In this document: piece by piece, positions 321 to 60,804 of the stretch
Layout: each line of letters starts with the position of its first letter
Numbering within the stretch: position 1 is the stretch's first letter
From: a virus
Virus record (IMG/VR): IMGVR_UViG_3300009551_000049
Coordinates: 1-64,000 of that record
Reading direction: 5' to 3' (one strand)
DNA length: 64,000 nt
Notes under the pieces: generated by a model
Told to the model about the DNA's origin: nothing
The model's database searches: none
What the model saw: the letters and a program-made list of their open reading frames with translations, nothing else
Made by a program: the position numbers and the translations under genes

Positions 321-3191
321 GTGGATATTTTTGACCAGCTTGATGATGGCGCGAAACCGGCACCCGCTCAGGATATTTTTGACACGCTCACGACCCAGAA
401 GCCGCCCGCGCAAAAACCTGCCACCGATATTTTTGACGAGGTTGCGCCACCAACTCCACCCCCGGCTCCCATCGCTGCGCCAAAGGTCGTCGCGTCACCC
501 AAGTCCGCTCCATTGCCTCCGATAGACTTCAGCAATGTTGATGCTACCAAGGGTTCTGAAAGCGGCGGCTTCGGTGAAATAACGGGCAACGAATGGCAGG
601 CAAAGCAATTGGCGAAGTTCACCAAACCAGCGGATGCAGTGCTGGCGAAGCTGGCCCCGAAGGTCGAGACACCGGAACAAAAGGGGCAGCTCGAAAAGGC
701 TGTCGCGGACATTAATGCGTCCAAACTGGAAACGCCCGGCACGGCCAAGCAGGCTCTCACCGCCGCATTTTCTCCACCCAAGCCTTTTACTGACTTGGTT
801 GAAATCGGTCGCGGCATCCAGCAAGACAACCGTGACACTGTTTTGGCCATGCGAAATCTGGCGGCAAAGCATGGCATCGACCCAGACAAGGCCGCAAAGC
901 TTCCGTCGCTGGCCGAGCAGTACATGCGGGGCGGTGCCAATGCCCTCCTTGATACGGCCCTGTCATTCACGTCCCCCGGCGGGTTGGTAACCCTCGGGTT
1001 TGGATCACTGCCAAAGGCGGTTCAAAAATCTGCCTCGGTGGGATTCTCCGCGCAGATGCTTTCACAATTTCCAGATGCAGCCCAACAGTTGCTTGATGAG
1101 GAGTCGAAGCCAGACAGTGAAAAGGATCACGTTAAAATCGCTCAACTGTATCTTGGCGCGATGGGTGACGCCGGTTTCGGCATCCTCGCCGGTACGCACG
1201 GGCTTTTACCTTCCGTTCCTGAAACCATAACCCCCCAGAAAGGAGTCCCCAATGCCAGCCAAATCACAAGCCCAGAGAGCGTTCTTGAATCTCAAGTACG
1301 GCCACAAGTGGGTGAAGAAACACGGATTCGACAACAAGGGCAAGCTGCCGAAGCACGTCCCGAAAAAACGCAAGTTGTCCCTTCGCCGGTCGAGGCGCAA
1401 AGCGTACTAACACCGCCGCCCGCGCCCGAGCCGGTCGTATCACCGACCACCAAGCCGGTTGATGTCATCCAGAAAGTGCTGGCCATTCCGCCAAAGGATT
1501 TGATGGCCAGCTTTCCGATGGGTGAAAACAACCTCACAGGCAGTGCGTACCGCCTTGGCCGCAACCTCACAAGCCCTGATGAGCTTACGGCCTTGCAGGA
1601 CGCCCAGACGGAAACCAAGGCCCGTGTGGACAAGTTCAGGAAAGATGGCGACCTGAACAACGCGATGATTGAAGCCGCGCGCCACCAGTTTTTTAACGAG
1701 GCGTATCAAGCGGCTACCGGCACTGGTAGCGCGAGGCTCGCGCTTGCAAAAGACCCGAACTACAAGCCTCCGTTTCCTGTGCCTGCTGAAAAACAGTCAG
1801 CAGTTTCCGTGGCGCAACCAGAAAAAACGCCAGTTGCTTCCGATATTGAGCTTGCACGTCAGACACTAGAAAAAGAAGGCAAACTGACAGTCTCGTTAGT
1901 ACAGCGCAGAAATAAACTAGGATATGTCAAATCTGCCGCTGCGGTTGATGCGTTGGCTGCGAATGGTGAAATTGTAAAACAGCCGGATGGAACATGGGTA
2001 AAATCTCCTCCACGCGAAATAATCGAGCCATCTCAAGACACCCAAGTTGGCGAAAACGCGGCTGGCGAAAAACTGTACGAGCGCAAGGATGGTTCGAGAT
2101 ACCGGATACAGGGCGGCAAACCCAATTTCGGCGGCGACCTCGCGCCAAAGCCTGCGGTTGAGAAAGCGGCTCCTGTTGCTGCTGAATTGAAAGTTGGCGA
2201 TCCAATAAAACTCATGGGTGTTGACAGCGTTCTTGCCGATACGCACACCGAGGACGGGATGAAGTATGAGATTTTCAACGGTGCCGCGCTTGGCGAGAAA
2301 AGGGCGGCGATTCGCGCCACAAACCTCGACACCGGCAACATCACAACCCTCAAGCAGTATCCCGACTACGATGCCGCAATGAAGGATTGGAATGGCGTGG
2401 TGAAGCGCGAAAAGACATGGGAGGAAACCGCCCGTGGCCGCAGCGTCTATAAATCCAACCTCGCCACTGAAAATGCCAAGGATGAAAAAGTCGTTGCTGC
2501 GATGAAGGCCGCGCCTTCGTATCCTAAGTTAAAAGCCGCTTACGATAGATTTCGCCGCAGCTTGTATGGAAAATCGTACAATCCGACAGTCATCGAAACG
2601 AAGCCTTGGGATATGCTGGATTCCAGTTCCGGCGTGATGAACGCCAAAAGCGCGATGGCAAAGACGTTGCGTGAACTGGAAAGCAAAGTGTTCGCCGAAT
2701 CTGGATTGCCTCGCAAAAAGCCTGACTCGAAGTTTCGCGGCGGCACGGGTGTTGATTGGGATAAGGTTCAGGTCGAAAAGCCCAAACCCGCCGAATCAGC
2801 CGCCGTTCCAAACCACATCCAAATTCGTCAGGAGGGCCAGCGTCAATTCGAGTTCGACAACAAGTACGCGAAGCTGATGAAGGCTGGAAAAGGCGAAAAG
2901 GATGCTGCTGCCAACGAGTTTTCACCGGAGGATGCAAAGACTGCACTGGCAAGGCTTGAGGCCGCGCCGGGATTTGATGCAGAGGCAAAGGCATCACTTG
3001 AGCGTCGAATCGGTGGCGTATCTGAAACCCCCAAACTCGCCGTCGAAAACGGATACGAATCACCCGAGGCGTTCGCCGATGACTTCGCCAAAAACCGTGA
3101 TGCCGAAGTGAACGAAACCGAGGAGGAATTTTTGAACCGGAGGCATTGCATGGGCACCATCCCGAGCCGGAAATCCATGCTCAACGAATAA
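321..3191 (+). CDS. Large polyvalent virion protein, 956 aa
   Basis: Starts with GTG. The N-terminus carries three spaced copies of the tetrapeptide DIFD (about residues 2, 19 and 36) separated by Pro/Ala linkers. Residues 200-300 contain hydrophobic Gly/Ala-rich stretches, residues 310-390 are a Pro-rich linker, and the rest is charged and helix-prone. This architecture and the position beside an 1841-aa gene match the large internal or ejected proteins of podovirus-like phages; no enzyme motif was found. The Pro-rich linker coincides with a small gene in another frame (1252-1410). It is followed two bases later by a small protease-like gene. Role in the virion is inferred from context and length. 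Confidence 0.7.
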   Translation: MDIFDQLDDGAKPAPAQDIFDTLTTQKPPAQKPATDIFDEVAPPTPPPAPIAAPKVVASPKSAPLPPIDFSNVDATKGSESGGFGEITGNEWQAKQLAKFTKPADAVLAKLAPKVETPEQKGQLEKAVADINASKLETPGTAKQALTAAFSPPKPFTDLVEIGRGIQQDNRDTVLAMRNLAAKHGIDPDKAAKLPSLAEQYMRGGANALLDTALSFTSPGGLVTLGFGSLPKAVQKSASVGFSAQMLSQFPDAAQQLLDEESKPDSEKDHVKIAQLYLGAMGDAGFGILAGTHGLLPSVPETITPQKGVPNASQITSPESVLESQVRPQVGEETRIRQQGQAAEARPEKTQVVPSPVEAQSVLTPPPAPEPVVSPTTKPVDVIQKVLAIPPKDLMASFPMGENNLTGSAYRLGRNLTSPDELTALQDAQTETKARVDKFRKDGDLNNAMIEAARHQFFNEAYQAATGTGSARLALAKDPNYKPPFPVPAEKQSAVSVAQPEKTPVASDIELARQTLEKEGKLTVSLVQRRNKLGYVKSAAAVDALAANGEIVKQPDGTWVKSPPREIIEPSQDTQVGENAAGEKLYERKDGSRYRIQGGKPNFGGDLAPKPAVEKAAPVAAELKVGDPIKLMGVDSVLADTHTEDGMKYEIFNGAALGEKRAAIRATNLDTGNITTLKQYPDYDAAMKDWNGVVKREKTWEETARGRSVYKSNLATENAKDEKVVAAMKAAPSYPKLKAAYDRFRRSLYGKSYNPTVIETKPWDMLDSSSGVMNAKSAMAKTLRELESKVFAESGLPRKKPDSKFRGGTGVDWDKVQVEKPKPAESAAVPNHIQIRQEGQRQFEFDNKYAKLMKAGKGEKDAAANEFSPEDAKTALARLEAAPGFDAEAKASLERRIGGVSETPKLAVENGYESPEAFADDFAKNRDAEVNETEEEFLNRRHCMGTIPSRKSMLNE
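1252..1410 (+). CDS. Nested out-of-frame small basic protein, 52 aa
   Basis: This frame lies wholly inside the 956-aa gene, shifted by one. It has an AGGAG Shine-Dalgarno at 1241-1245, six bases before the ATG, one of the best ribosome sites in this part of the window. The product starts MPAKSQAQRAFLNLKYGHKW, continues with many Lys and Arg and ends KAY. The MPAKSQAQR-type beginning is familiar from small phage head-region proteins, and the composition is typical of a real basic protein rather than a shadow frame. The enclosing frame reads as a low-complexity linker here, which would tolerate overprinting. Function unknown; nucleic-acid binding is possible from charge. Confidence 0.6.
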   Translation: MPAKSQAQRAFLNLKYGHKWVKKHGFDNKGKLPKHVPKKRKLSLRRSRRKAY

Positions 3192-4871: not shown

Positions 4872-5032
4872 GCAGAATGCCTATATTAAAAAATACCTGC
4901 GTCGTCCGCTGCGAGTGCGGATGCAAGCGCGATGTACGAACCAGTCCGCGCTGGCTAAAGAGCGGCAGGCATGTTTTCTTTGAGAAAGCCTGCAATATAA
5001 GATTCAATAGTGAACATCCGAACAAGCCATAA
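4868..5032 (+). CDS. Small Cys-rich protein, 54 aa
   Basis: ATG 4868 overlaps the stop of the ATP-grasp gene (ATGA), and its TAA shares a base with the ATG of the giant virion gene, so it is tightly coupled on both sides. Cysteines cluster at residues 11-19 (CVVRCECGC) with another at 42, suggesting a zinc- or disulfide-bound knuckle. The rest is basic. No family is recognised. Confidence 0.6.
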   Translation: MSRMPILKNTCVVRCECGCKRDVRTSPRWLKSGRHVFFEKACNIRFNSEHPNKP

Positions 5033-8000
5033 TGATTAAGTGTCCTCCAAAAAATTACGCTTTCGGCCTGCTCAAAAGCGGCCTCGGTGAAGCCCGCGCC
5101 CACATCGCCTACCAACGCAATGGATTTGAAGTGCCTGAAATTGAGAAGGCGTTGGACTTGCTTGGAATGGACAAAGAGGCATGGCGCGACAGCAAAGGCC
5201 GCACACTGCATCAGGTGAAAGCTCTGAACGCTACTGCTAAAACTGTTCGTGAATCTGGGGGGCCGATTCTTCCAAAATCTGAACCATCCGCACCTTCTGG
5301 AATTGCCCCAGAATCAAAAGTGCGCGTAGGCAAAGACCCGAGGCTTCACACCGTGGTTCGGGAGCTTCCAAAGTCACAAGGCGACCTGCCGGACGAGAAA
5401 TTTTATGAAGTCAGAAACGACAAAACCGGAGAAGTCCAGACGGTCGAATCGAAAGACATTACGCCCGTCACTGAGCGGACTGCTGCTGAAAAATCTGCTG
5501 TTAAGCCCGATAGCCTTGACGACCAATTGCGGTCATACAAGCTCGACCCATCAGCATTCCCAGACGCCGCCAGCAAGCGGGCCGCACTGAAGCGGGCGAA
5601 AGCCACATCCGAACCGGCGGCAAATCTCGGAGAAGGCTTGCCCGCCGGTCAAGGTTCATCTGATGCCCAGATACTTGAATCAATCAAGGGCGAGCCTACT
5701 CACGGATTCAGGGTCAATGTCATCTCGCGGGATCAGGCCGAACAAATCACCAGCAGGCCCGAGGCGCGCGGCTACGGCGGTTTCTTTGGTAACGGCGAAA
5801 TCTATTTCGTGCGCGAGAACGTGAACACGAAAAATCCCGAGCTGGTACGCCAGTTGTTACGGGAGGAAATCGGCCACGGACTTTTACGCACCGAGAACGG
5901 GGCTAAATTGCTGGAAGAAGTCTTTGGCCGCGCCCGCCGTGAATTGACGGAGGCTGAAAAGGCTCCGCTCCGTGCCGCTGGTTACAAAGAGCATCAGTTG
6001 CTTGACGAGTTCATTGCCAAGTCAGCGCGGGAGAACCGGCCTTGGTGGTCGGAGGTCATTCTTACCATCAAGTCTTGGCTGGCCAAGCTCGGGTTGAATC
6101 TTTCCAACGAAGATGCCGCCCGCTTGCTGCTACGTCGAATCAAGGAAAATCAATCCAGTCAAATTGAAGGCGTCGACATTGCACCGGGCCAGCCCGTGCC
6201 ACCGGACGAAGCCTTGGATGAAGAAAAACCACCCACGATCCAGATTGCCGGTCGCACCTATGTTGTCCCAGATGAAACGCTGATTGCGTCCAAGTTCACA
6301 CCTGAACAGATTGAAGACGGCAAGAAACGCGCAACCGCCGTTGCCGCTAGTCTTAAACTTCCGGGCAACGTGGATACGCGCGCAGACGGCTCGCTTTTCA
6401 ACGTGGACGGCGACTCCAATGTTGGCAGCGATGGCAAGCCGGTTTTCGACTATTCCACCGAAGTCAGCAGGCTGCGCGATGAGCTTGTCAAAGCGCATCA
6501 GGCCAACGACGAGGTTTTGACCGCCCAGTTGGTCAAGCTTATCAATTACAACCACGATGAGTGGCCAAAGCTAGTGGCCAAGCCGCTGGCGGATGAATTG
6601 AGGGGGCTGGCGGCGGCAAAGTCGAGCTTCTATGGCCAAATGTTGCGGATGATAAAGGGCGCGGCGGTGTCGAAAGACCTGCGCTCCATCGCCCGTAATC
6701 TTGATTTCTCACTGAAGCGTCTTTACTCCGCCAATTTCGGGGGCGATGCGTATGAGACTTTTGTAAGCCGTATCATACAAAACTTTCGTGACTATTTCAC
6801 GCCCGAGCAGTTGGACAAATTTGGCACCGACAATCCCAATCTGGTGGAACAGGTTGAATTGCTGGCCGCGACCGCACGGGCGGAAACTGCGAACCGGCTG
6901 TACCGCCAGATTCAGTCCAAGCTGAACCCTAAGAATATCACGCCCGCCAAGCTCGAAAAAAATGCCATCGCGCGCGAGGAATTCGAGGCCTTGATTCAGC
7001 AGCTTGAAAAAATCGGCGTGGACATCCCCGAGAAAAAGAACGCGAAGATGTCCGCGCGCGAAAAACTGCTGTTGCTGGTCAAAGACAAAACCATCGAGAA
7101 GGTGAATGCCGATGTCGAAGCGGCCATCAAATACGGTTTGAGCGAAGCGGGCAAACAGGCTGCTCGCAATGAACTGCTGGGCAACAAGGCCGCTATCGAG
7201 GAGCTGGATGCGCGCTACCTTGCGGGCGAGGAACCGACGCCAGAGCAGATTACCAAGGGTCTTGAGTTACAGGCTTTCCGTGGCATCAAAGGGCTGCGCG
7301 ATACATGGCTTAGTTATGATCCGGTGACGACCAAGCTGGTACAGGACATTGTTAAGGGCGATTTCAAGGGCGTTCGTTTCGGCATTCCGAAAAAGCAGCC
7401 GGTGGACACCCGTTTGAGCCTGACGGAACTGGCCAAGCAGCCGGATGCCGAGATTACCCGCGTTCTGGATGCGTACCTGAAGAACATCGAGGACAATCTG
7501 GACATCGCGGGCGCATCGCCGGAAACACGCCAGCGCATCCGTGACACGGTTCAAAAACAGGTTGCCGACCAGATTGAAAACGTCATCCGCCCCAAGGTGC
7601 GCGACATCATGTTTAGCGCGCCCAAGGAAAAAGGCTCGGCCAAGACTGACGAGCAAAAGCTGGCGGAGCAAATCAACGCCGGGTTGTTCAAGGATGAACG
7701 GCTGAAGGTACCGGAGATGGTTGAGCACGTGGCGGGCAAGAGCCTTGTCAAAAAATTAACGCCGAAAGTTGGCGATTTGGCACGGGTTATTCTGGATACG
7801 CCATCGTTCAAGCAGGCGGACATGGAGAAGCAGATTGCCGACAAGGTTGTTTCCGACCTCGGAGTTACACCCGATCAGGCTGAGAATCTTGCCAAAGTCA
7901 TTTACGCTTCGCTGAAGCCGAAGATTACCGAGGCCCGCGCTGCCGCCCAAGAAAAAGCGGTGAAGTCGATGACACCGCGTGAGCAGGCGGTGATTCCAAA

Positions 8001-10557
8001 GACGGATACAAAGCTGTGGGACAACATCACCCAGTTTTTCAACGCCGGGGGCAAGGACTACGAGGAACTGCTGAAGCGTGTTGCCGTCATTCGCGGTCTG
8101 CCCGTGCCATCCGCTGTTGAGATGGCCAAAATGAAGGCTTTGGCGGACAAAATCGACCGCCTCACAAATTTAAGCCCCGATGCGGAGGAAAAAATCCGCA
8201 ACGATTCCAGCTTGAATGATGCGGAAAAGGCACAGGCGATTGATAACGAGCGCAACAAAATCGAGGCCATCAACGCCTCTGAAATTGGACGCGCCACCCG
8301 TCAAATGGCCGTGGAATGGGCGAAGTTCTCGAAGCCGTACAACTGGCTTCAAAAGCGCAATATCGCCGATGCCGGATACGAGCTGGCCACGGCCAACCTG
8401 CTGGCAAAATTCGGATTCCCCATCCGGCTGGCAACGCATATCACGACCCAGTTGCTTGTCAGGACGCCCATTCGTCCGCTGGCCGTAGCATTGGAACAGT
8501 TTTATGCCGACCGTGCGGCGGGCAAGCAGACCGAATTTTTCTCTGACGCCTACAACGCTGTCAGGGAGACTTTTGACCAGACTTTCAAGGCCGTGCCGCA
8601 AGCCCTGCGGGCAGGCCGGTCACAGTTGACCGCGCGCGGCGAAGTAAACTCGTCGCGGCTAGCGGCGGGTGTCAACGCACTGGAACGCATGGCGACACAG
8701 GCCAAGGAATACGCGAAGAAGGGCGATTATGTCCGGGCGACCATGCTTTATACCGTGGCCTCGCTGCGGATGGCCCAGCGTGTTGTCAGCGGCATCGACG
8801 CTTTTCAGGGCGAGTTCGTCGAGATGCAGGAATTGAGGCATCAAATTTTCATCGAACTGGCCAAGCAGGGAAAATCCCGCGCGGAAATCGAGATGCAGAT
8901 GGAAAACATCTTCGGCAGCATGGCTGCGGACTGGGCCATTGCACTGGCCGATGCCCGCCGTGGATTTGACGAGTTCGACATCCTGAAGGACTCCAAAAAC
9001 TTCGTGCGCGAACAGGCGTTGACCGAGGCGGCTGACCGGCTGTTGAAAGAGCGGATGTATCAAAAGGCCGAACTGATGGGTTTGCCCTCGGACTCGATGC
9101 GGGCGTACATCCTGCGACAGCGCATGGCGGAGGCTTGGCAGACGGCGACAAAGACAGGGTTGGGCGGTGCGCTCACCAAGGGCATGGTAGCCGCCCGTCA
9201 GTTTGCAACCGAAAAAGGCCTGCCATTCCTGCCTGTGGAATTCTCTAACGCGATTGGCGCGGGTGTGAATTATCACCTGATGCTCACCCCGTTCTACAAG
9301 CTCGCGCTGGGCAAGGTCGATGCCGCCGGGGTCGGCGAGTCCGCTTGGAACGAAACCCGGCTGGATCGGACAAACCGGCAGCTCATGGCCCTTGCCGGAA
9401 CCATGCTGGGGGGCACGATGGCCGCGCTGGTGCTATCCGGCCAGCTCCGGGTGCAACTCCACAGCCCAACGGACAAGAAAGAGCGCGAGAAGTTTATTGC
9501 CGAGGGCCACAAGGTCGGTACGGTCGAATGGATGCTGCCGGATGGCAACTTCATACCCTTCAGCCTCACCGTGGGGCCGTTCTCGCTCGTTTCGCCGTAT
9601 CTGGCGGCAGCGGGCCAAACCGTGCATCTGGTACAGTCACGGGAGAAGAAGCAGGCCGCTCTGGACGCGCAGGCGGCTAAGACCGGCCTTCCAGCGGGCA
9701 AGATAGACCCTGTGACAGTAACGGACGTTCTGGGCGTGGCCGGGCAGGCTGTATGGGCCTCCCTGCTTGGTGGCTCGACCGCCGGGGGCTTGGTGTCGTC
9801 TTACTCCGAATTCCAGACTCCGAATGCTAATAAGGCGGTTTCCGCCACGATTGCCCCGCTCCTGCCGTACATTCCCATGCTTCAGGAGGTATCGCGCATG
9901 ATTGGCGTGGGGCTGGACTCCAAGACCGCCACGGTCTTTGACTACCTGCTTCCGCTGCCAACGTCAGGCGCACGGGCCATCAACGCGCTGGGCGACCCTG
10001 TACGAACGCCGGATGCTATCCAGAGAGTCATTCAGGCGATTACTGCCGGAACATACCCCGGCATCGTTTCCAGCAAACCGGACGAATCGTATGATTATGA
10101 GACACGCTCGGCATATTCTGCCCTGCTGGCCACCAGATACGCCCCGCCGGAGATAAATCCGGCCAAAGGGTACGCTATCGGCGGCACCTTCAGGCCAATG
10201 ACCCAGCCCGAGCTTGAGCAGTACACGGAATTGCGCGGGCAATACCTGAAAGAGAATCTGGCAGCACTCGGAGCCAGCGCGACCAAGCAACAGGTCAGGG
10301 CCGCGTATCAGCAGGCCAACGCGCAGGCTTTGACTGACATGGGTATCACCACCGCGCGATCCACGGCGGCGACCTCTGGGACTGCTGCCGCGGCACCCGC
10401 CGGACAGCGCAGGCTGTCCCTTGGCCGGAGCCGGTCGAGCGGGCTGAAAGTCAGCCTAAAAAAACTTCACCGCACAAAAATTCGCAGACCGCGTTCACTT
10501 CGCCTGCGTAGCTCCAAAAAATCGCGCCTGCATCGTCCAAAATTAAGCTTTACATGA
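5032..10557 (+). CDS. Giant polyvalent virion protein, 1841 aa
   Basis: The largest gene in the window. Residues 225-360 resemble a metallopeptidase-like module of large phage polyvalent proteins: REEIGHGLL at 277-285 has the zincin helix layout but Glu at the first ligand position, so it may be inactive. Residues 380-1100 are long charged helices. Residues 1440-1480 hold a Gly/Ala-rich hydrophobic segment (LAGTMLGGTMAALVLSGQL) that could span a membrane, and later segments near 1520 and 1580 are also hydrophobic. This pattern fits a protein packaged in the head and ejected to form or line a DNA channel. The last 50 or so residues become Arg/Ser/Leu-rich and look like an out-of-frame read (see findings). 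Confidence 0.75.
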   Translation: MIKCPPKNYAFGLLKSGLGEARAHIAYQRNGFEVPEIEKALDLLGMDKEAWRDSKGRTLHQVKALNATAKTVRESGGPILPKSEPSAPSGIAPESKVRVGKDPRLHTVVRELPKSQGDLPDEKFYEVRNDKTGEVQTVESKDITPVTERTAAEKSAVKPDSLDDQLRSYKLDPSAFPDAASKRAALKRAKATSEPAANLGEGLPAGQGSSDAQILESIKGEPTHGFRVNVISRDQAEQITSRPEARGYGGFFGNGEIYFVRENVNTKNPELVRQLLREEIGHGLLRTENGAKLLEEVFGRARRELTEAEKAPLRAAGYKEHQLLDEFIAKSARENRPWWSEVILTIKSWLAKLGLNLSNEDAARLLLRRIKENQSSQIEGVDIAPGQPVPPDEALDEEKPPTIQIAGRTYVVPDETLIASKFTPEQIEDGKKRATAVAASLKLPGNVDTRADGSLFNVDGDSNVGSDGKPVFDYSTEVSRLRDELVKAHQANDEVLTAQLVKLINYNHDEWPKLVAKPLADELRGLAAAKSSFYGQMLRMIKGAAVSKDLRSIARNLDFSLKRLYSANFGGDAYETFVSRIIQNFRDYFTPEQLDKFGTDNPNLVEQVELLAATARAETANRLYRQIQSKLNPKNITPAKLEKNAIAREEFEALIQQLEKIGVDIPEKKNAKMSAREKLLLLVKDKTIEKVNADVEAAIKYGLSEAGKQAARNELLGNKAAIEELDARYLAGEEPTPEQITKGLELQAFRGIKGLRDTWLSYDPVTTKLVQDIVKGDFKGVRFGIPKKQPVDTRLSLTELAKQPDAEITRVLDAYLKNIEDNLDIAGASPETRQRIRDTVQKQVADQIENVIRPKVRDIMFSAPKEKGSAKTDEQKLAEQINAGLFKDERLKVPEMVEHVAGKSLVKKLTPKVGDLARVILDTPSFKQADMEKQIADKVVSDLGVTPDQAENLAKVIYASLKPKITEARAAAQEKAVKSMTPREQAVIPKTDTKLWDNITQFFNAGGKDYEELLKRVAVIRGLPVPSAVEMAKMKALADKIDRLTNLSPDAEEKIRNDSSLNDAEKAQAIDNERNKIEAINASEIGRATRQMAVEWAKFSKPYNWLQKRNIADAGYELATANLLAKFGFPIRLATHITTQLLVRTPIRPLAVALEQFYADRAAGKQTEFFSDAYNAVRETFDQTFKAVPQALRAGRSQLTARGEVNSSRLAAGVNALERMATQAKEYAKKGDYVRATMLYTVASLRMAQRVVSGIDAFQGEFVEMQELRHQIFIELAKQGKSRAEIEMQMENIFGSMAADWAIALADARRGFDEFDILKDSKNFVREQALTEAADRLLKERMYQKAELMGLPSDSMRAYILRQRMAEAWQTATKTGLGGALTKGMVAARQFATEKGLPFLPVEFSNAIGAGVNYHLMLTPFYKLALGKVDAAGVGESAWNETRLDRTNRQLMALAGTMLGGTMAALVLSGQLRVQLHSPTDKKEREKFIAEGHKVGTVEWMLPDGNFIPFSLTVGPFSLVSPYLAAAGQTVHLVQSREKKQAALDAQAAKTGLPAGKIDPVTVTDVLGVAGQAVWASLLGGSTAGGLVSSYSEFQTPNANKAVSATIAPLLPYIPMLQEVSRMIGVGLDSKTATVFDYLLPLPTSGARAINALGDPVRTPDAIQRVIQAITAGTYPGIVSSKPDESYDYETRSAYSALLATRYAPPEINPAKGYAIGGTFRPMTQPELEQYTELRGQYLKENLAALGASATKQQVRAAYQQANAQALTDMGITTARSTAATSGTAAAAPAGQRRLSLGRSRSSGLKVSLKKLHRTKIRRPRSLRLRSSKKSRLHRPKLSFT

Positions 10558-36236: not shown

Positions 36237-39206
36237 GTGGAGACTTCCCAATACCTATTAAAACCCCTGAATGAAAAAGGCAGGGCTTTATTATCCCTGT
36301 GCAAGAAAAAGCGGCTGGTTTTGGCGACCGGCACAAGGCTCAGTACGAAGTGCGTTTCGCCAGATACGCTCATTTGCACAGAAGACGGCATTGTTTCAAT
36401 AGGGGGTTTGGCAAAATGTGCCGAAGGGGAATCCGTCTCAATTTCTAAAAAAGTCCTCTCATTCAATCCAAAGACGAACCAGATTACAAAATCAGACGCC
36501 ATTGAGTTTTATAGCTCTGGGTTCAGAACCGCGTTAAAAATCAAAACTGTGTTGGGTTATGAACTAATATGCTCTCAAGAACACCCAATTTGGTCTGAAT
36601 TTAATGGCGAAATGAAATTCAGGACTTCCACCGAAATTAAAGAGATTTTGATGGCTGGTGGAAAGGTCTGGCTGCCGCTATCAAAAAACGATCAGTACCC
36701 GGAGGTTGAAAAATTCAAGTCTGTTGAAATCGAGTGGTTGAACAGAAACGACCACTACAAAGTCAGGGCCATGCAAAGGATACAGAAGGCGATAGATGGG
36801 GGTGCTAAAAGCATCTCACAGATTATGAAGTCGGCCAAGTCCGCGCTTCCAACAGTTCGCGCCTACCTGAACAATCCAAATCATACAATCCATAGCAGGC
36901 AGTCAATCCTTATTGATGACGACATGGCTTATTTTATCGGCCTGCTGGTCGGAGATGGTTGCTATACAAAAAAAGTTCTTGAGGCAGCAGCTATCGGTTT
37001 TTCGTCAAACGACCAATTCTTGATTGATTTTGTAAAAAAGATTTCGGAGTCGAGATTTAAAAACACTACTTTCAGCCATCGCACAGGGTGCGATTGGGTC
37101 ATCAAATCAGCCCCACTCAAGGCATTGTTAAAAATTTCCGGCATGGCTGGAAATTATTCGCATGAAAAGTTTGTTCCAGATTTTGTGTTTGGGTCACCCA
37201 AGTCCGTTGTCCGCGCATTCTTGCAGGGGCTTTTTGATACAGATGGAACGGTTTGTAAAAATGGTCAACCAAGATACTGCTCAACGAGCGAGCGTTTGGC
37301 CAAACAAGTTCAAGACCTTTTGCTTTATTTAGGCGTTAGAAGTTCAAGGGTTTTTAGCAGAAATAACTTTAAGGGTGCTTGGATTTTGTCCGTTCTGATG
37401 GAGGACGAATTTGCATCCAAGGTCGGGTTCAGACTTGAGAGAAAACAGTTGAAACTTTTTACCCAAAAAAAGTTCAGCATGAGCCGACCTGCCTTCGCGC
37501 CTTCTTTACTCAAAGTGCTTGAGCAATTAAAAGATAACCGAAAATCTCGCGGAGTACCAAAGCTTCCGAGAATCGTTCATTTGAGAACGATTGGCGGGTT
37601 GTTGCGGCAAAATCTGGCGTTGTCGCACAAGCGAATAATGCCGTTCATGCAGGCTATAAGGTGCGAAACCGAGCCTTCATTTCAAGCGCATTGGATCGGC
37701 GGGAATGTTTTCTGGAATCAAATTGAATCGTGTGAAAAAACCGAAAGTGAATTGGTTGACATTTATGTTCCAGAAACAAATTGCTTCATTGGAAATGGAT
37801 TTATCAACCACAACACAATGGGTTGTCTCCACGTCCTGTGTGACCACGCTTGGAATACGATGCTCGGCAACATCGTCCTCATCACCATCAGCCAGAGCGC
37901 GGGCATCAACAGCGGTGTATGGGAGCAACTCACGCAAATGGTAATCCCCGCCTTCGGACTTAAATACGCGAAAGACCCGTATAACCAAGGCGCGTCCAAA
38001 AAACCTTGCTGCGAAGTCTGGAACCGGCATGGTGGAAAAACAAAAATCATGCTCGAATCCCTCAAGGACGAAAAAGAAGTCGAGGAGCGTTTCAAAAACA
38101 AATCGTACTCGATGATTTTCGTGACCGAGCTGGACATCTTCAAATTTCAAAAGACATTCCTGACATGGGCGGCGGCTTTGCGTATGCCCCATCTCGGGCT
38201 AAACGAGCATCTGCTTTTGGCCGACTGCAATCCGGCGGATGAGGGCACCGCGCACTGGATTTACAAGATGTGGTACGAGCTTCGCATTGACCCCGATTGC
38301 CGCCCTGAGCTGCGGGCGATACGCGACCAGCTTGGCCTGTTGGAATTCAACTTGGATGACAACAATTATTCGACCAAGGAGGAAATCGAACTCATCAAAT
38401 CGCAGTACGCGGACTCGACTGACCTGTATGACAGGTACATCAAGGGACTGTGGGTCACCGCGAGCGAGAACGCGCTTTTCAGGTCAGTATTTAAGGAGCA
38501 GATTCACATCATCGGCGACGTGGCCACCCGCACAAATCCCAGCCCGTCCATCCTGATTCCAGAGCCGGAGTGCTTCGAGTTGTACGGCGGCTGGGACATG
38601 GGCGTTGTGAACAGCGCGTTTGTCGTCATCGAAAAGGTTGTGCGTAACGTGGGCGGAAGGTCGGTGCCGTTTTTCAAAATCCTTGATGAGCTGGTGTTGG
38701 TGGATCAGGATTTTTTGATGTCCGCATACGTCGAGGCCGTGATGGAAAAGATGAAGTTCTGGGAGGACTTCATCGGCAAGCCGGTGCAATGGACTCACTG
38801 GAGCGACCGGAGCGCGTTTGATTTTCACGACAAGCTGGCTGGCCGGTATGACCATCAGGAGGTTGCGGACGTGTCCGGCGGCAAGATTCAGTTGATGGCC
38901 GCGATGGACGGACGGCGCACAAACGAAACCGTCAGGCAGCGCATCGACCTTTTCCGAAAGCTGCTTTTCCAGACCCGCGTATTTTTCTCAGCCGAAAAAA
39001 CACCCATGTCGATTGAGATGTGCAAGTCGCTTAAAAAAGGGCGTGGCCAGTTTTCAACCATCCAGAAGGATTCCAAGCACAAGCACGTATTCGACGCCAT
39101 CACCTACGCCATCGCCACGGAATGTTCGGAGGAATTAAACCGCAACGTCATCGGGCAATTGCACCCGCAAACATCTGAGTCCGGTCTGGTCAGGGTCGAG
39201 CTATGA
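36237..39206 (+). CDS. Terminase large subunit interrupted by an intein, 989 aa precursor
   Basis: GTG start. Residues 1-38 and 527-989 make a 501-aa terminase after splicing. The ATPase P-loop is GTRLSTK|T, split by the intein between Lys38 and Thr527. Walker B is probably SMIFVTELD near 620. The nuclease part contains GGWDMGVVNSAFVVIE with a first metal Asp, WTHWSDRSAFDF, and KHKHVFDAITYA with a late Asp. The enzyme pumps DNA into the head through the portal and cuts it. No small subunit was recognised with certainty; 39574-40137 is a candidate by position. Confidence 0.88.
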   Translation: METSQYLLKPLNEKGRALLSLCKKKRLVLATGTRLSTKCVSPDTLICTEDGIVSIGGLAKCAEGESVSISKKVLSFNPKTNQITKSDAIEFYSSGFRTALKIKTVLGYELICSQEHPIWSEFNGEMKFRTSTEIKEILMAGGKVWLPLSKNDQYPEVEKFKSVEIEWLNRNDHYKVRAMQRIQKAIDGGAKSISQIMKSAKSALPTVRAYLNNPNHTIHSRQSILIDDDMAYFIGLLVGDGCYTKKVLEAAAIGFSSNDQFLIDFVKKISESRFKNTTFSHRTGCDWVIKSAPLKALLKISGMAGNYSHEKFVPDFVFGSPKSVVRAFLQGLFDTDGTVCKNGQPRYCSTSERLAKQVQDLLLYLGVRSSRVFSRNNFKGAWILSVLMEDEFASKVGFRLERKQLKLFTQKKFSMSRPAFAPSLLKVLEQLKDNRKSRGVPKLPRIVHLRTIGGLLRQNLALSHKRIMPFMQAIRCETEPSFQAHWIGGNVFWNQIESCEKTESELVDIYVPETNCFIGNGFINHNTMGCLHVLCDHAWNTMLGNIVLITISQSAGINSGVWEQLTQMVIPAFGLKYAKDPYNQGASKKPCCEVWNRHGGKTKIMLESLKDEKEVEERFKNKSYSMIFVTELDIFKFQKTFLTWAAALRMPHLGLNEHLLLADCNPADEGTAHWIYKMWYELRIDPDCRPELRAIRDQLGLLEFNLDDNNYSTKEEIELIKSQYADSTDLYDRYIKGLWVTASENALFRSVFKEQIHIIGDVATRTNPSPSILIPEPECFELYGGWDMGVVNSAFVVIEKVVRNVGGRSVPFFKILDELVLVDQDFLMSAYVEAVMEKMKFWEDFIGKPVQWTHWSDRSAFDFHDKLAGRYDHQEVADVSGGKIQLMAAMDGRRTNETVRQRIDLFRKLLFQTRVFFSAEKTPMSIEMCKSLKKGRGQFSTIQKDSKHKHVFDAITYAIATECSEELNRNVIGQLHPQTSESGLVRVEL
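36351..37814 (+). mobile_element. Intein with LAGLIDADG homing endonuclease, 488 aa
   Basis: Begins with Cys39 (CVSPDTLICTEDG, splicing block A), has a block B His in ICSQEHPIW, and ends VPETNCFIGNGFINHN followed by Thr, the usual His-Asn plus nucleophile junction. Two endonuclease motifs, FIGLLVGDG near residue 233 and LQGLFDTDG near 330, are the paired LAGLIDADG helices with acidic ends. All splicing and cutting residues look intact, so it should excise from the protein and home into empty terminase genes. Insertion within the P-loop is a known favourite site. Confidence 0.92.
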
Positions 39207-46741: not shown

Positions 46742-48487
46742 ATGAAATTGAACCTATCTGACACATCTGATGCCGCGATTGATTTGGGCGTCTTGTTAAA
46801 AACTCGGCTGTTGATCCAAACAAACAGCGGCGGCGGAAAAAGCTGGCTGCTGCGACGGCTGGCCGAACAGGCTTTCGGCAAAGTACAGGTCATCATCATT
46901 GACCCTGAGGGTGAATTTTCAACGCTGCGCGAAAAGTTTGATTACGTTCTAGTTGGCAAGGGCGGCGAGACGCCCGCTGATTGCCGCTCCGCCGCTATGG
47001 TCGCGCACAAGCTGCTTGAGCTTCATGCCTCGGCAGTGTGCGACCTCTACGAGATGAAGCCGCAGGACAGGCACCACTGGGTAAAGCTATTCATCGACGC
47101 CCTGATTGATGCCCCTAAAAACCTCTGGCACCCAGTTATCGTAATCGTGGATGAGGCGCATGTTTTTTGCCCCGAATCAAAGGCGGGCGAGAGCGAGGCC
47201 AGCGGTTCGATGATTGACCTCGCCACTCGGGGTCGCAAGCGCGGTTACTGCGCCGTGTTCGCCACCCAGCGGCTTGGTAAGTTAAAGAAGGATGCCGCTG
47301 CCGAACTTACCAATGTTATGATTGGTCAGACCTTCATTGACATCGACCGCGACCTGGCGGCTGATTGTCTTGGAGTATCCGGCCCGGAACGCCGGGCATT
47401 CGACAACGAAATAAAAACTGTCCAGCAAGGCAACTTTTATGCTCTGGGCCGGGCGATTTGTACCACCCGCACCAAGGTTCAAGTCGGCAAAGTTCAAACT
47501 ACACATCCTGAAATTGGTGGTAAAAAATTCAGCGCGGAGCCTCCGCCCCCGTCTGAAAAGGTCAAGCTGATGATGCCGAAGCTTGCCGACCTTCCAAAGG
47601 CGGCTGAAGAAAAGGCTAAAACTGAATCTGAGTTGCGAACTGAAGTGAGGGTACTCCGGCAACAATTGGCGGATGCTAAACGAACCAACCCAGTTGAAAA
47701 AAGTATTACCGAAATCAAAAATGTGCCCGCTTTGACCGATGCGGAGCGTAAACGTCTGACCAAGGCCATCGAGACGGGCGACAACATCATTTGCAAGTAT
47801 GAGGTAATTCAAAACCTGATTGGAAATCAGGACAGTGACATGATTGACCTGAGGTCAGACTTGAGGTTTTTCAAAGACCTTTTGACCGGAAAATTGACGC
47901 CACCAAAACAGTTTAGGCCCGCGCCATTGACGCGGCAGACTTTCCCGATAGTGACCATGCACCGTGAAAAAATTGCGTCCGTTCAAACCAATGGCGACAT
48001 ATCTCCGGTTGGCCAACGTATCCTGAACGCGCTTGCTGAAATGGAAATGCTTGGCACAAAGACACCGGATCGAGAGCTTGTCGCCCTACTCGCAGGTTAC
48101 ACACATCTGCTTTCCAAAGGATTCGTAAATGCAGTGGGCGAGCTACGCACCGCAGGTTTGGTGTCGTATCCTAACTCTGATTCAATCCAATTCACCGATG
48201 CTGGCCGTGAAAAGGCCCAGTTCCCTTCGAGGCCGAGCACTTCGGAGGAGATTCAGAACCGCGTTTGCAATCTGATTGGCGGCAAGGCCAGTCAGATTTT
48301 GCGCCCGCTTATTGACAACTATCCCAATCCATGTGCCCGGACTGACATCGCGGCGGCGGCGGGATACACACATCTGTTGTCAAAGGGATTTGTGAATGCT
48401 ATTTCAAGACTTCGCACACTCGGGTTTGTGGAATATCCTGACAGTCAGAGCATCGTCGCCACCAAAATCTTGTTTCTCAATGATTGA
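46742..48487 (+). CDS. HerA-like P-loop ATPase with duplicated C-terminal module, 581 aa
   Basis: Walker A is TNSGGGKSWLLRRL (residues 28-41), Walker B VIVIVDEAHVF (135-145), and RKRGYCAVFATQRLGKL carries the later RecA-fold features of HerA/DUF87 ATPases, which move along or unwind double-stranded DNA. Residues 290-420 are charged linker. The last 140 residues hold two related units, each with GYTHLLSKGFVNA (near 452 and 541) and a following LRT.G.V.YP segment, probably two winged helices. A VRR-NUC nuclease gene follows with overlapping codons, as HerA and NurA do in other genomes. A packaging or segregation role is the alternative. Confidence 0.75.
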   Translation: MKLNLSDTSDAAIDLGVLLKTRLLIQTNSGGGKSWLLRRLAEQAFGKVQVIIIDPEGEFSTLREKFDYVLVGKGGETPADCRSAAMVAHKLLELHASAVCDLYEMKPQDRHHWVKLFIDALIDAPKNLWHPVIVIVDEAHVFCPESKAGESEASGSMIDLATRGRKRGYCAVFATQRLGKLKKDAAAELTNVMIGQTFIDIDRDLAADCLGVSGPERRAFDNEIKTVQQGNFYALGRAICTTRTKVQVGKVQTTHPEIGGKKFSAEPPPPSEKVKLMMPKLADLPKAAEEKAKTESELRTEVRVLRQQLADAKRTNPVEKSITEIKNVPALTDAERKRLTKAIETGDNIICKYEVIQNLIGNQDSDMIDLRSDLRFFKDLLTGKLTPPKQFRPAPLTRQTFPIVTMHREKIASVQTNGDISPVGQRILNALAEMEMLGTKTPDRELVALLAGYTHLLSKGFVNAVGELRTAGLVSYPNSDSIQFTDAGREKAQFPSRPSTSEEIQNRVCNLIGGKASQILRPLIDNYPNPCARTDIAAAAGYTHLLSKGFVNAISRLRTLGFVEYPDSQSIVATKILFLND

Positions 48488-58387: not shown

Positions 58388-60172
58388 ATGAACACTGAAG
58401 AAACAACAGCAAAAGAATTCACAGGCGAAGCCACATATTGCCCCGAAGATAACAAGCTGCGTCTTTACGTTGGACGCGTTCCCCGCGAGGAGTATTTAAA
58501 ATTGAGGGCCGAAGGCTGGACGGCCTTGCCCAAGCAGCGCGAAACCGGGGGCGGAGACTTCGCAGCCATCTGGACGCCCGCTCGCCGCGACACCGCTTTA
58601 GAATACGCCGGATTTATCGGCGATGAGGACAAAGGCCCGGAGGAGCGCGCAGCGGACAGGGCCGAGCGTTTCAGCGGCTACCGTGACAAACGCACCGTCG
58701 AAGCCTGCGGACACGCGGACAGGTACGAGACCGGGCCGAGCGCACACGGTTTCCAATCGCAGGCACGGGCCGAGCGCGCAGCCGCCCGCCATGACCGCAT
58801 TGCCACCCGTGCCGGGGATTCATGGTCTAAAGCCGAATACTGGACACGCCGCACCGCTGGCGTCATCGGACATGCGCTTTACAAGTCAACGCCGGGTGTG
58901 CGTATGGGCCGCATTAAAATCATTGAGGCGGATTTGCGGCGGATCGAAAAACAGCGGGCTGAGAACGCCGCATTTTTTGAATCGTGGCGCGACATTTCGA
59001 CCATGACCGATGCCACCCAGCAAAACGCATTTGCAAAGCGGCTGGCCAGCTCATGTTATGGCCGGATGGATTACACCCACCCGCGCACGGGCAAAACCGG
59101 CAGTTTGTGGGAATTTATCCGCGATGACGCTGCCGACCGGATCACGGGCGCGGAGGCTGCGGCCCTTTACCTCGCGGCCCATGCCGACCCCAAAAAGCCG
59201 GAATGGAACGAAACGCGCTCAGGTGAATGGGTGGCGCATTACAATTTGCGGCTGGCTTATGAAAACCAAATGTGCGAGGCCGCAGGAGGCCGGGCCGCGC
59301 TGGTCGAGATGGTGCCTGGCGGTTTCGTCGGCTCATATCAAATCCGCAAGGTATGCAAGTCGCCTGTGACCGGCCTTGTCGTTTCGGTTGAAGTCATGGG
59401 AACGCATACCGGCTATACCAAGGAAAGCGGATACACCGAGCGCGCCACCCGCCCCGCGCCCGTCCTGTTCAACATCGAGCGGCTGACCGCCGAAGCCTAC
59501 CGGCCCCCAACGGCGGAGGAGCTGACCGCGTTTAAAGCCGCGATGAAGGCGGAGAAAGCCGCCAAGCCCAAGGCCATCAAGCCGCCCTTGATTAACCCTA
59601 CCGACGCGGACGCGGAACGCCTACAAGCGGTTTGGAACGAGCGCGAGCGGGCCGCATACGCCGCCAGCATGGAACGCCAGTACGGGGCAAGCATGGTCGC
59701 AAGCTGCCTGAAGGATTGGAAACCATCGACGGTTTGCCGGATCACGCAAGCCGCCTACTCCGCGAATTCAAAAGGCAGCTACGCGCGGGCGGAGACAAAA
59801 GAAATTTGCTGGCATGGTGTCATCAAACCTCGCCAGTATTTTCACAGCTACGAAAAGCAGGCGAAAGACAACGCGGAACGCGGCCCCGTGGTGTGCGAAC
59901 TGCGAACCACATCGAGCGACGGCCACACCTACGGCGCAAAGCGGGTAATTGTCCTTACTGACAAGGCGCAAAAGACTTTTCCCGCCGAAATCTGGCAGCA
60001 ATTCAAACCCGCTGAAAGCGTGATAAAGTCCCTGTCTTGCGCGCTCAAGCTTTGGGTGTGTGGTTGCGGGCACCGGGAAGAAACTTCAAAAACCTATGAT
60101 TGCAAGGTTTGCCCGAATTGTAACCGGCTGATGCGTGACGAAAAAGGCGAAGTTTGCACCACCAAAAAATGA
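58388..60172 (+). CDS. DUF3560-domain protein, 594 aa
   Basis: Residues 10-70 carry the N-terminal module YCPEDNKLRLYVGRVPREEY. DUF3560 follows about 75-185 with ERAADRAERFSGYRDKR, HADRYETGPSAHGFQSQARA and HDRIATRAGDSWSKAEYW, where the repeated alanine/arginine helices are typical. The rest has a conserved segment around residues 290-350 and a C-terminal CGCGHREET/CKVCPNC zinc pair. DUF3560 proteins are usually plasmid- or island-borne and their role is unknown. It is coupled to a DNA methyltransferase-like gene. Confidence 0.8.
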   Translation: MNTEETTAKEFTGEATYCPEDNKLRLYVGRVPREEYLKLRAEGWTALPKQRETGGGDFAAIWTPARRDTALEYAGFIGDEDKGPEERAADRAERFSGYRDKRTVEACGHADRYETGPSAHGFQSQARAERAAARHDRIATRAGDSWSKAEYWTRRTAGVIGHALYKSTPGVRMGRIKIIEADLRRIEKQRAENAAFFESWRDISTMTDATQQNAFAKRLASSCYGRMDYTHPRTGKTGSLWEFIRDDAADRITGAEAAALYLAAHADPKKPEWNETRSGEWVAHYNLRLAYENQMCEAAGGRAALVEMVPGGFVGSYQIRKVCKSPVTGLVVSVEVMGTHTGYTKESGYTERATRPAPVLFNIERLTAEAYRPPTAEELTAFKAAMKAEKAAKPKAIKPPLINPTDADAERLQAVWNERERAAYAASMERQYGASMVASCLKDWKPSTVCRITQAAYSANSKGSYARAETKEICWHGVIKPRQYFHSYEKQAKDNAERGPVVCELRTTSSDGHTYGAKRVIVLTDKAQKTFPAEIWQQFKPAESVIKSLSCALKLWVCGCGHREETSKTYDCKVCPNCNRLMRDEKGEVCTTKK

Positions 60173-60804
60173 AGGCCGAAACATTCAACCGTTTGCATAC
60201 GTTACGCATGGAAAATGACGCGGCCAAGTACGCACAGGACGAACTTAGGCCGCGCTTTGACCGCTTGGCGGGTCGGCATGAGAACGGCACCGCCCCGCGC
60301 GCGGTGTCCGCCTTCCAGCTGTTCCAGACGCCGCCGGACATCGCCGCCCGGCTGGTGTCCGCGTCGGGGGCAAACCGCAGTTGCCGGGTGCTTGAACCCT
60401 CAGCCGGTCTAGGCCGCATTTTGGACGCGCTGCAAAAGTCCGGGGCGTGGGATATAACCGCCGTCGAAATGGCCGCGAATATCGCTGGGGAACTTTACGC
60501 CCAATGCCGCCCCGAGCTGAAGATTTTACAGCGCGACTTTTTGACGGTCATACCAGAGGAAACGGGGTTATTTGATTGCGTGGTGATGAATCCCCCATTT
60601 CATCTCCGGGCCGACATCCGCCACATTTTACACGCCCTGAAGTTTTTACAGACTGGCGGAACGCTGGCTGCACTCTGCCTTGATACGCCGCACCGCGAAA
60701 AAGCCTTGCGGCCTATGTCCTCCAGCTGGGAGAAACTACCGGCGGGAACCTTTGCCAAGGAGGGAACGTACGTTCCGACCGTGCTTTTGACGATCCGCAA
60801 ATAA
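60169..60804 (+). CDS. SAM-dependent methyltransferase, probably DNA, 211 aa
   Basis: ATG 60169 overlaps the DUF3560 stop. VLEPSAGLGRILDALQ near residue 75 is motif I and VVMNPPFHLRADIRHI near 139 is motif IV (NPPF), the layout of N6-adenine-type or related methyltransferases. Residues 45-55 (VSAFQLFQTPPDIAARLV) match the TPxxIAxxLV start of such enzymes. Coupling to DUF3560 recalls plasmid accessory modules, where the two occur together. Substrate and target are unknown. Confidence 0.78.
   Translation: MKAETFNRLHTLRMENDAAKYAQDELRPRFDRLAGRHENGTAPRAVSAFQLFQTPPDIAARLVSASGANRSCRVLEPSAGLGRILDALQKSGAWDITAVEMAANIAGELYAQCRPELKILQRDFLTVIPEETGLFDCVVMNPPFHLRADIRHILHALKFLQTGGTLAALCLDTPHREKALRPMSSSWEKLPAGTFAKEGTYVPTVLLTIRK

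Follow-up and report, generated by a model that had tools for sequence, protein, structure and literature searches.

The window analysed here is a stretch of 64,000 nucleotides (positions 1 to 64,000 of the IMG/VR virus record IMGVR_UViG_3300009551_000049). Near its start, a short ORF lies wholly inside a much longer one on the same strand, and the features of this arrangement, in window coordinates, are the following:

321..3191, + strand: enclosing gene of 956 amino acids with a GTG start, polyvalent-protein-like by its ORF translation and domain matches
1241..1245, + strand: Shine-Dalgarno (SD) sequence AGGAG, part of AAAGGAG at 1239-1245, six bases 5' of the ATG at 1252
1252..1410, + strand: nested small gene of 52 amino acids, MPAKSQAQRAFLNLKYGHKWVKKHGFDNKGKLPKHVPKKRKLSLRRSRRKAY, in frame +1 relative to the enclosing gene, identified by its homologues and alignment A1
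1251..1409, + strand: shadow of the small gene in the enclosing frame, amino acids 311-363, NASQITSPESVLESQVRPQVGEETRIRQQGQ..., a Pro/Glu/Gln-rich linker
1467..1832, + strand: domain of the enclosing protein 3' of the nest, common to L055 (nested) and to L048 and L049 (no nest)
1860..1994, + strand: FtsK gamma winged-helix-like domain of the enclosing protein (Pfam E 3.9e-5, under the gathering score; PHROG 13700)

An earlier note on this DNA had described an AGGAG followed after six bases by an ATG, opening a 52-amino-acid frame offset by one base from the 956-amino-acid frame, and had called the enclosing frame a low-complexity linker at that place. Both descriptions hold: the coordinates are exact, with a nested ORF of 159 bases, and the enclosing frame reads there as a segment rich in Pro, Glu and Gln. 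The label of virion gene that the note attached to the 956-amino-acid ORF is plausible from its polyvalent-like features.

A search with the 52-amino-acid product, which the note had proposed, found relatives in IMG/VR at 47 loci directly and at 152 loci by profile, with identities of up to 86%. The consensus of this family, termed A1, is MPAKSQAQRxxLNxKFGHxWVKKHHFDNKGKLPxHV, and 12 columns are invariant among the 34 diverse members of alignment A1 (P2, A3, S5, A7, Q8, R9, G17, H24, N28, G30, L32 and P33). The window protein bears the family hallmarks, namely the MPAKSQAQR start, the KGKLP core and the invariant residues. Among cultured phages, tblastn with three family queries found no relative, the sole match being at chance level (E 9); Pfam, PHROGs and NCBIfam contained no match to the 52-amino-acid protein, and PDB sequences none to the small protein. 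As 84,980 genomes of bacteria and archaea, scanned with a pattern, likewise yielded no relatives, the family looks virus-specific within the limits of such a scan, whose pattern distant copies could escape. Judged by these searches, A1 is a previously undescribed small-protein family, so far seen only in uncultivated phages.

The majority of A1 relatives are free-standing genes, and these free copies often lie near genes for the portal, the head maturation protease and the major head protein. We classed a copy as nested when a second same-strand frame spanned the small gene and extended past each of its ends by 100 codons or more. This criterion gave 13 lineages from the first set, in each of which the extension is 200 codons or more on either side, and two from the second; L206, where the ATG of the large ORF stands 66 codons 5' of the small gene, was also counted. 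The 16 nested lineages are therefore the window, L054, L055, L056, L064, L070, L073, L075, L078, L092, L101, L043, L045, L202, L219 and L206. Their small genes lie wholly inside large ORFs of 745 to more than 2300 amino acids, and the relative phase of the nest is identical in 16/16 lineages, the other phase being used in 0/16. In the window's record and in 12/12 nested records tested (those other than L202, L206 and L219, some of them fragments), the small gene is single-copy and the nested copy is the only one. Several candidate nests were rejected. At L008 and L062, a spurious Arg-rich frame runs on for 30 codons beyond the small gene and then stops. L023, L033-L035, L037 and similar loci were set aside because the frame merely opens with the small gene or shortly 5' of it and encodes the downstream head maturation protease.

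Other arrangements of the same gene were also found. At L063, a homologous large gene has no nest and a free small gene lies ~220 bases past its end. The A1 motif forms the N-terminus of an 803-amino-acid protein with NUDIX, histidine phosphatase and Peptidase_S78_2 (XkdF) domains at L059 (6001-8412), and it occurs in-frame in longer proteins at L102, L121 and L196. The long proteins of L102 (1975-7413) and L121 (1-1797), in which the in-frame motif is internal, have 34% mutual identity and no PHROG match.

The earlier note had named, as an outcome that would speak against a small gene, a lack of homologues together with substitutions in relatives that follow only the large frame. The opposite was observed: besides the existence of relatives in IMG/VR, nested pairs have a mean identity of 0.74 in the small protein and 0.46 in its large-frame shadow, with the small frame the more alike in 78/78 pairs, and changes in these pairs are commonest at the third position of the small frame. 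These observations indicate that the nested 52-amino-acid ORF is a real gene. An SD-like site stands 5' of 13/16 nested starts (L055, L056 and L202 have no clear one), compared to 13.7% of same-phase control ATGs in the same large ORFs, a significant enrichment (p 2e-9, binomial test).

We also asked how readily the large frame would stay open by chance. When codons for the unchanged small protein were sampled according to the usage of the large gene, 0.1-8% of draws per lineage left the large frame open. Treating the lineages as independent, the sum of log10 P is -28.6, a combined figure that overstates the case and is not to be taken literally because the 16 lineages share history. As a T-ending codon of the small gene would put a TNN codon in the large frame, such codons were counted at sites where no stop would result, with codon-usage expectations derived from the large genes. 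They are depleted about fourfold in nested copies (25 observed vs 98.5 expected), while free copies, which served as the control, show a mild depletion (272 observed vs 334 expected, 0.81). These patterns argue that the large frame is held open by selection in 16 lineages.

Two readings would dispense with a separate small protein encoded at the nest. One takes the small ORF to be a decayed insert that is now linker DNA and whose frame has survived by chance, which would accord with the look of the small gene as the incoming partner, free elsewhere and missing from L048. The start, the SD sites as counted above and the conservation of the protein are, however, intact across 16 nested lineages, and the nested copy is the sole copy in its record; the clustering of changes at the third position of the small frame, with every nested pair favouring that frame, largely refutes this reading, which we find hardly credible. 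The other invokes programmed frameshifting, by which a large N-terminal fragment would be fused to the small domain and no separate protein would be made. Although larger proteins (L059, L102, L121 and L196) do contain the domain in-frame, internally or at their start, conservation begins exactly at the ATG that the free copies use, and it is that ATG which has an SD-like site 5' of it in 13 of the 16 lineages, making frameshifting very improbable.

Turning to the large partner, polyvalent proteins are very large multidomain phage proteins that include the P1 DarB and N4 virion RNA polymerase types (PMC5512222). The enclosing protein of the window has an FtsK_gamma match (E 3.9e-5, below the Pfam cut-off) to its winged-helix-like domain, that of L045 matches a SNF2/Strawberry-notch-type helicase, and the nestless relative L048 has a DarB-like match; as these are polyvalent features (PMC5512222), the enclosing proteins resemble polyvalent virion proteins in their predicted domains. 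Domains are common to them in patchwork fashion. Within its single ORF, L048 has an N-terminal domain in common with L101 and a downstream domain in common with the window and L055, with an 80-amino-acid linker and no nest between the two, and further downstream L202, which is nested, is 68-73% identical to it. The 956-amino-acid (321-3191) and 1841-amino-acid (5032-10557) proteins of the window both match one 2140-amino-acid ORF of L055 (5190-11612). A polyvalent-type gene appears to be split or fused between phages. A search of the window for its portal and major head genes identified none with confidence. Two window ORFs, at 36237-39206 and 46742-48487, both match terminase large subunit families, the N-terminal half of the former (989 amino acids) also matching primase/helicase and endonuclease families, and a 216-amino-acid ORF at 60154-60804 has matches to the methyltransferase parts of very large phage proteins, weakly including a DarB-like family.

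Since free-standing copies of the small gene are widespread, and since L048 has the same flanking domains without a nest, it is probably the small gene that came first, the linker of the large gene being the more recent coding. A hallmark of classic de novo overprinting is that the nested gene is restricted to carriers of the enclosing gene; here, most relatives are free. Of the two origins that the earlier note had offered, overprinting of a real phage gene in a disordered linker is borne out in that the gene is real and has homologues, but the small gene is not a de novo product. The second, entry of a small gene into a large one whose frame stayed open by luck, comes closer in having an existing gene enter, but it errs in the luck, openness being kept by selection in the 16 lineages.

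The small gene may have entered polyvalent genes repeatedly and independently, or there may have been one old nest followed by recombination and losses, and we give repeated entry about an even chance. In its favour, nested copies are spread over several clades, a tree of 103 small proteins requires 11 changes between free and nested forms, at least four of them on well-supported branches, and the AU test rejects a single nested clade (p 0.0036). However, this tree rests on only 40 columns, and the nests of L055 and L202 both sit right after a common N-terminal domain (38% over 180 amino acids) though the two are far apart in the small-protein tree, a pattern that could mean either that the site was entered repeatedly or that an old nest swapped its small gene by recombination. 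The use of one phase throughout also fits a single origin.

We considered, and dropped, easier openness as the cause of the constant phase: in free copies the two alternative phases are open about equally often (36/88 and 31/88), and in nested copies the other phase is often the easier one to keep open. The two phases differ in what they encode. In free copies, the shadow in the phase used by the nests is 27% P/E/Q and 1.6% Cys with a near-neutral charge and resembles the flanks of the nests (26% P/E/Q, 0 Cys, slightly negative charge), whereas the shadow in the other phase is Arg/Ser/Cys-rich and basic. This suggests that the phase is decided by how well the shadow serves as a linker. A constant phase would also be expected from a single origin of the nest. 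Our tentative account, to which we give somewhat less than an even chance, is that a head-region gene entered polyvalent-gene linkers (or re-entered them by recombination) several times, always in the phase that reads as a neutral disordered linker; its alternative frame would have been pre-adapted as a linker, letting the gene live inside others.

We are confident in the broader reading, in which a functional 52-amino-acid gene with its own SD sequence sits inside a polyvalent-type gene, the same bases being read in two phases, with the small gene the older. Its basis in sequence consists of homology, single copy number, same-phase nesting, the start signal, the constraint on two frames and a relative with an empty site. 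The small gene would have started as a free-standing gene, often in the head-morphogenesis region, and in some phages it would have come to sit in the linker of a large gene. Over the nest, the large frame would read as a neutral, Pro/Glu/Gln-rich disordered linker, for which reason both products could be tolerated. A single late mRNA would probably serve for both, with some ribosomes reading the linker as they translate the large gene and others initiating internally at the AGGAG-ATG; we infer that both frames are translated.

In the AlphaFold model (pLDDT 74, modest confidence), the small protein has a basic tail and two helices, both short. Its neighbourhood and one fusion suggest that this small basic two-helix protein most likely acts in head assembly or packaging. 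It could serve in docking or packaging by carrying partner enzymes into the prohead, as opposed to being a DNA-condensing or purely regulatory peptide. The N-terminal fusion to NUDIX, phosphatase and head protease domains in L059, the portal and head protease neighbours, and the location alongside polyvalent-type proteins, for which packaging and injection are predicted (PMC5512222), all point to docking, but the basic tail fits nucleic acid binding equally well and a fold search against viral structures gave no match for the model; we regard the docking role as possible, though doubtful.

Embedded out-of-frame genes with separate counterparts are already known. The two-component spanins Rz/Rz1 are a gene pair that occurs in embedded, overlapped and separated forms (PMC6139136), and in the embedded form, as in the nest described here, a variable part of the larger gene also encodes the small one in another frame (PMC6139136). 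Unlike the spanin case, the A1 small gene also occurs away from any such large partner. Spanins use both phases while the nest uses one in 16/16 lineages, and spanin partners cooperate in lysis (PMC6139136), whereas here a head-region small protein is paired with a polyvalent-type protein. By inspection, the 52- and 956-amino-acid sequences have no lipobox and no N-terminal transmembrane helix, and neither matched a spanin family. The polyvalent-protein paper mentions no nested out-of-frame gene, 'overlap' and 'alternative frame' being absent from its text (PMC5512222). Overprinted viral genes yield two proteins from one DNA stretch in different frames (PMC8227390). Where classic overprinting makes the nested frame the newcomer (PMC8227390), the nest described here contains a gene that is widespread and free elsewhere, and the large-frame segment is probably the newer coding. 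A literature search of incomplete coverage found no earlier report of this nest. New here are the nature of the partners, the probable inversion of age between the two frames and the invariant phase.

Short ORFs somewhat like A1 occur in Rhizobium phage TM3_14A, phiKZ-like phages and Shewanella phage QDWS. This set, A2, has the motif MPSKSKKQxxxMAAAAH..FAKKLGIPQ.V.KEF..AD and was searched for with an approximate sequence. Like A1, the A2 ORFs are short and basic with the same MPxKSxxQ start, and are free-standing or, in QDWS, N-terminal in a larger gene near the portal; the remainder of the motif differs. Remote homology is suggested, with an hhalign probability of 86% and E 5e-6 for the single comparison of the two profiles, that of A2 comprising 4 sequences only. 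The QDWS gene (L131, 4001-5848; 615 amino acids), with its analogous short N-terminal motif, also contains a stretch like the NUDIX region of L059 (31% over 84 amino acids).

Since the small gene is encoded entirely within a large gene in a shifted frame in at least 16 lineages, ordinary gene finders likely miss it there, and gene callers that bar full same-strand overlap would fail to register the A1 family in 16 lineages. Standing free, adjacent, fused or nested in different phages, one gene provides a natural series from which the question of which frame came first becomes answerable, and the series suggests that what the shadow encodes determines the phase in which a gene nests.
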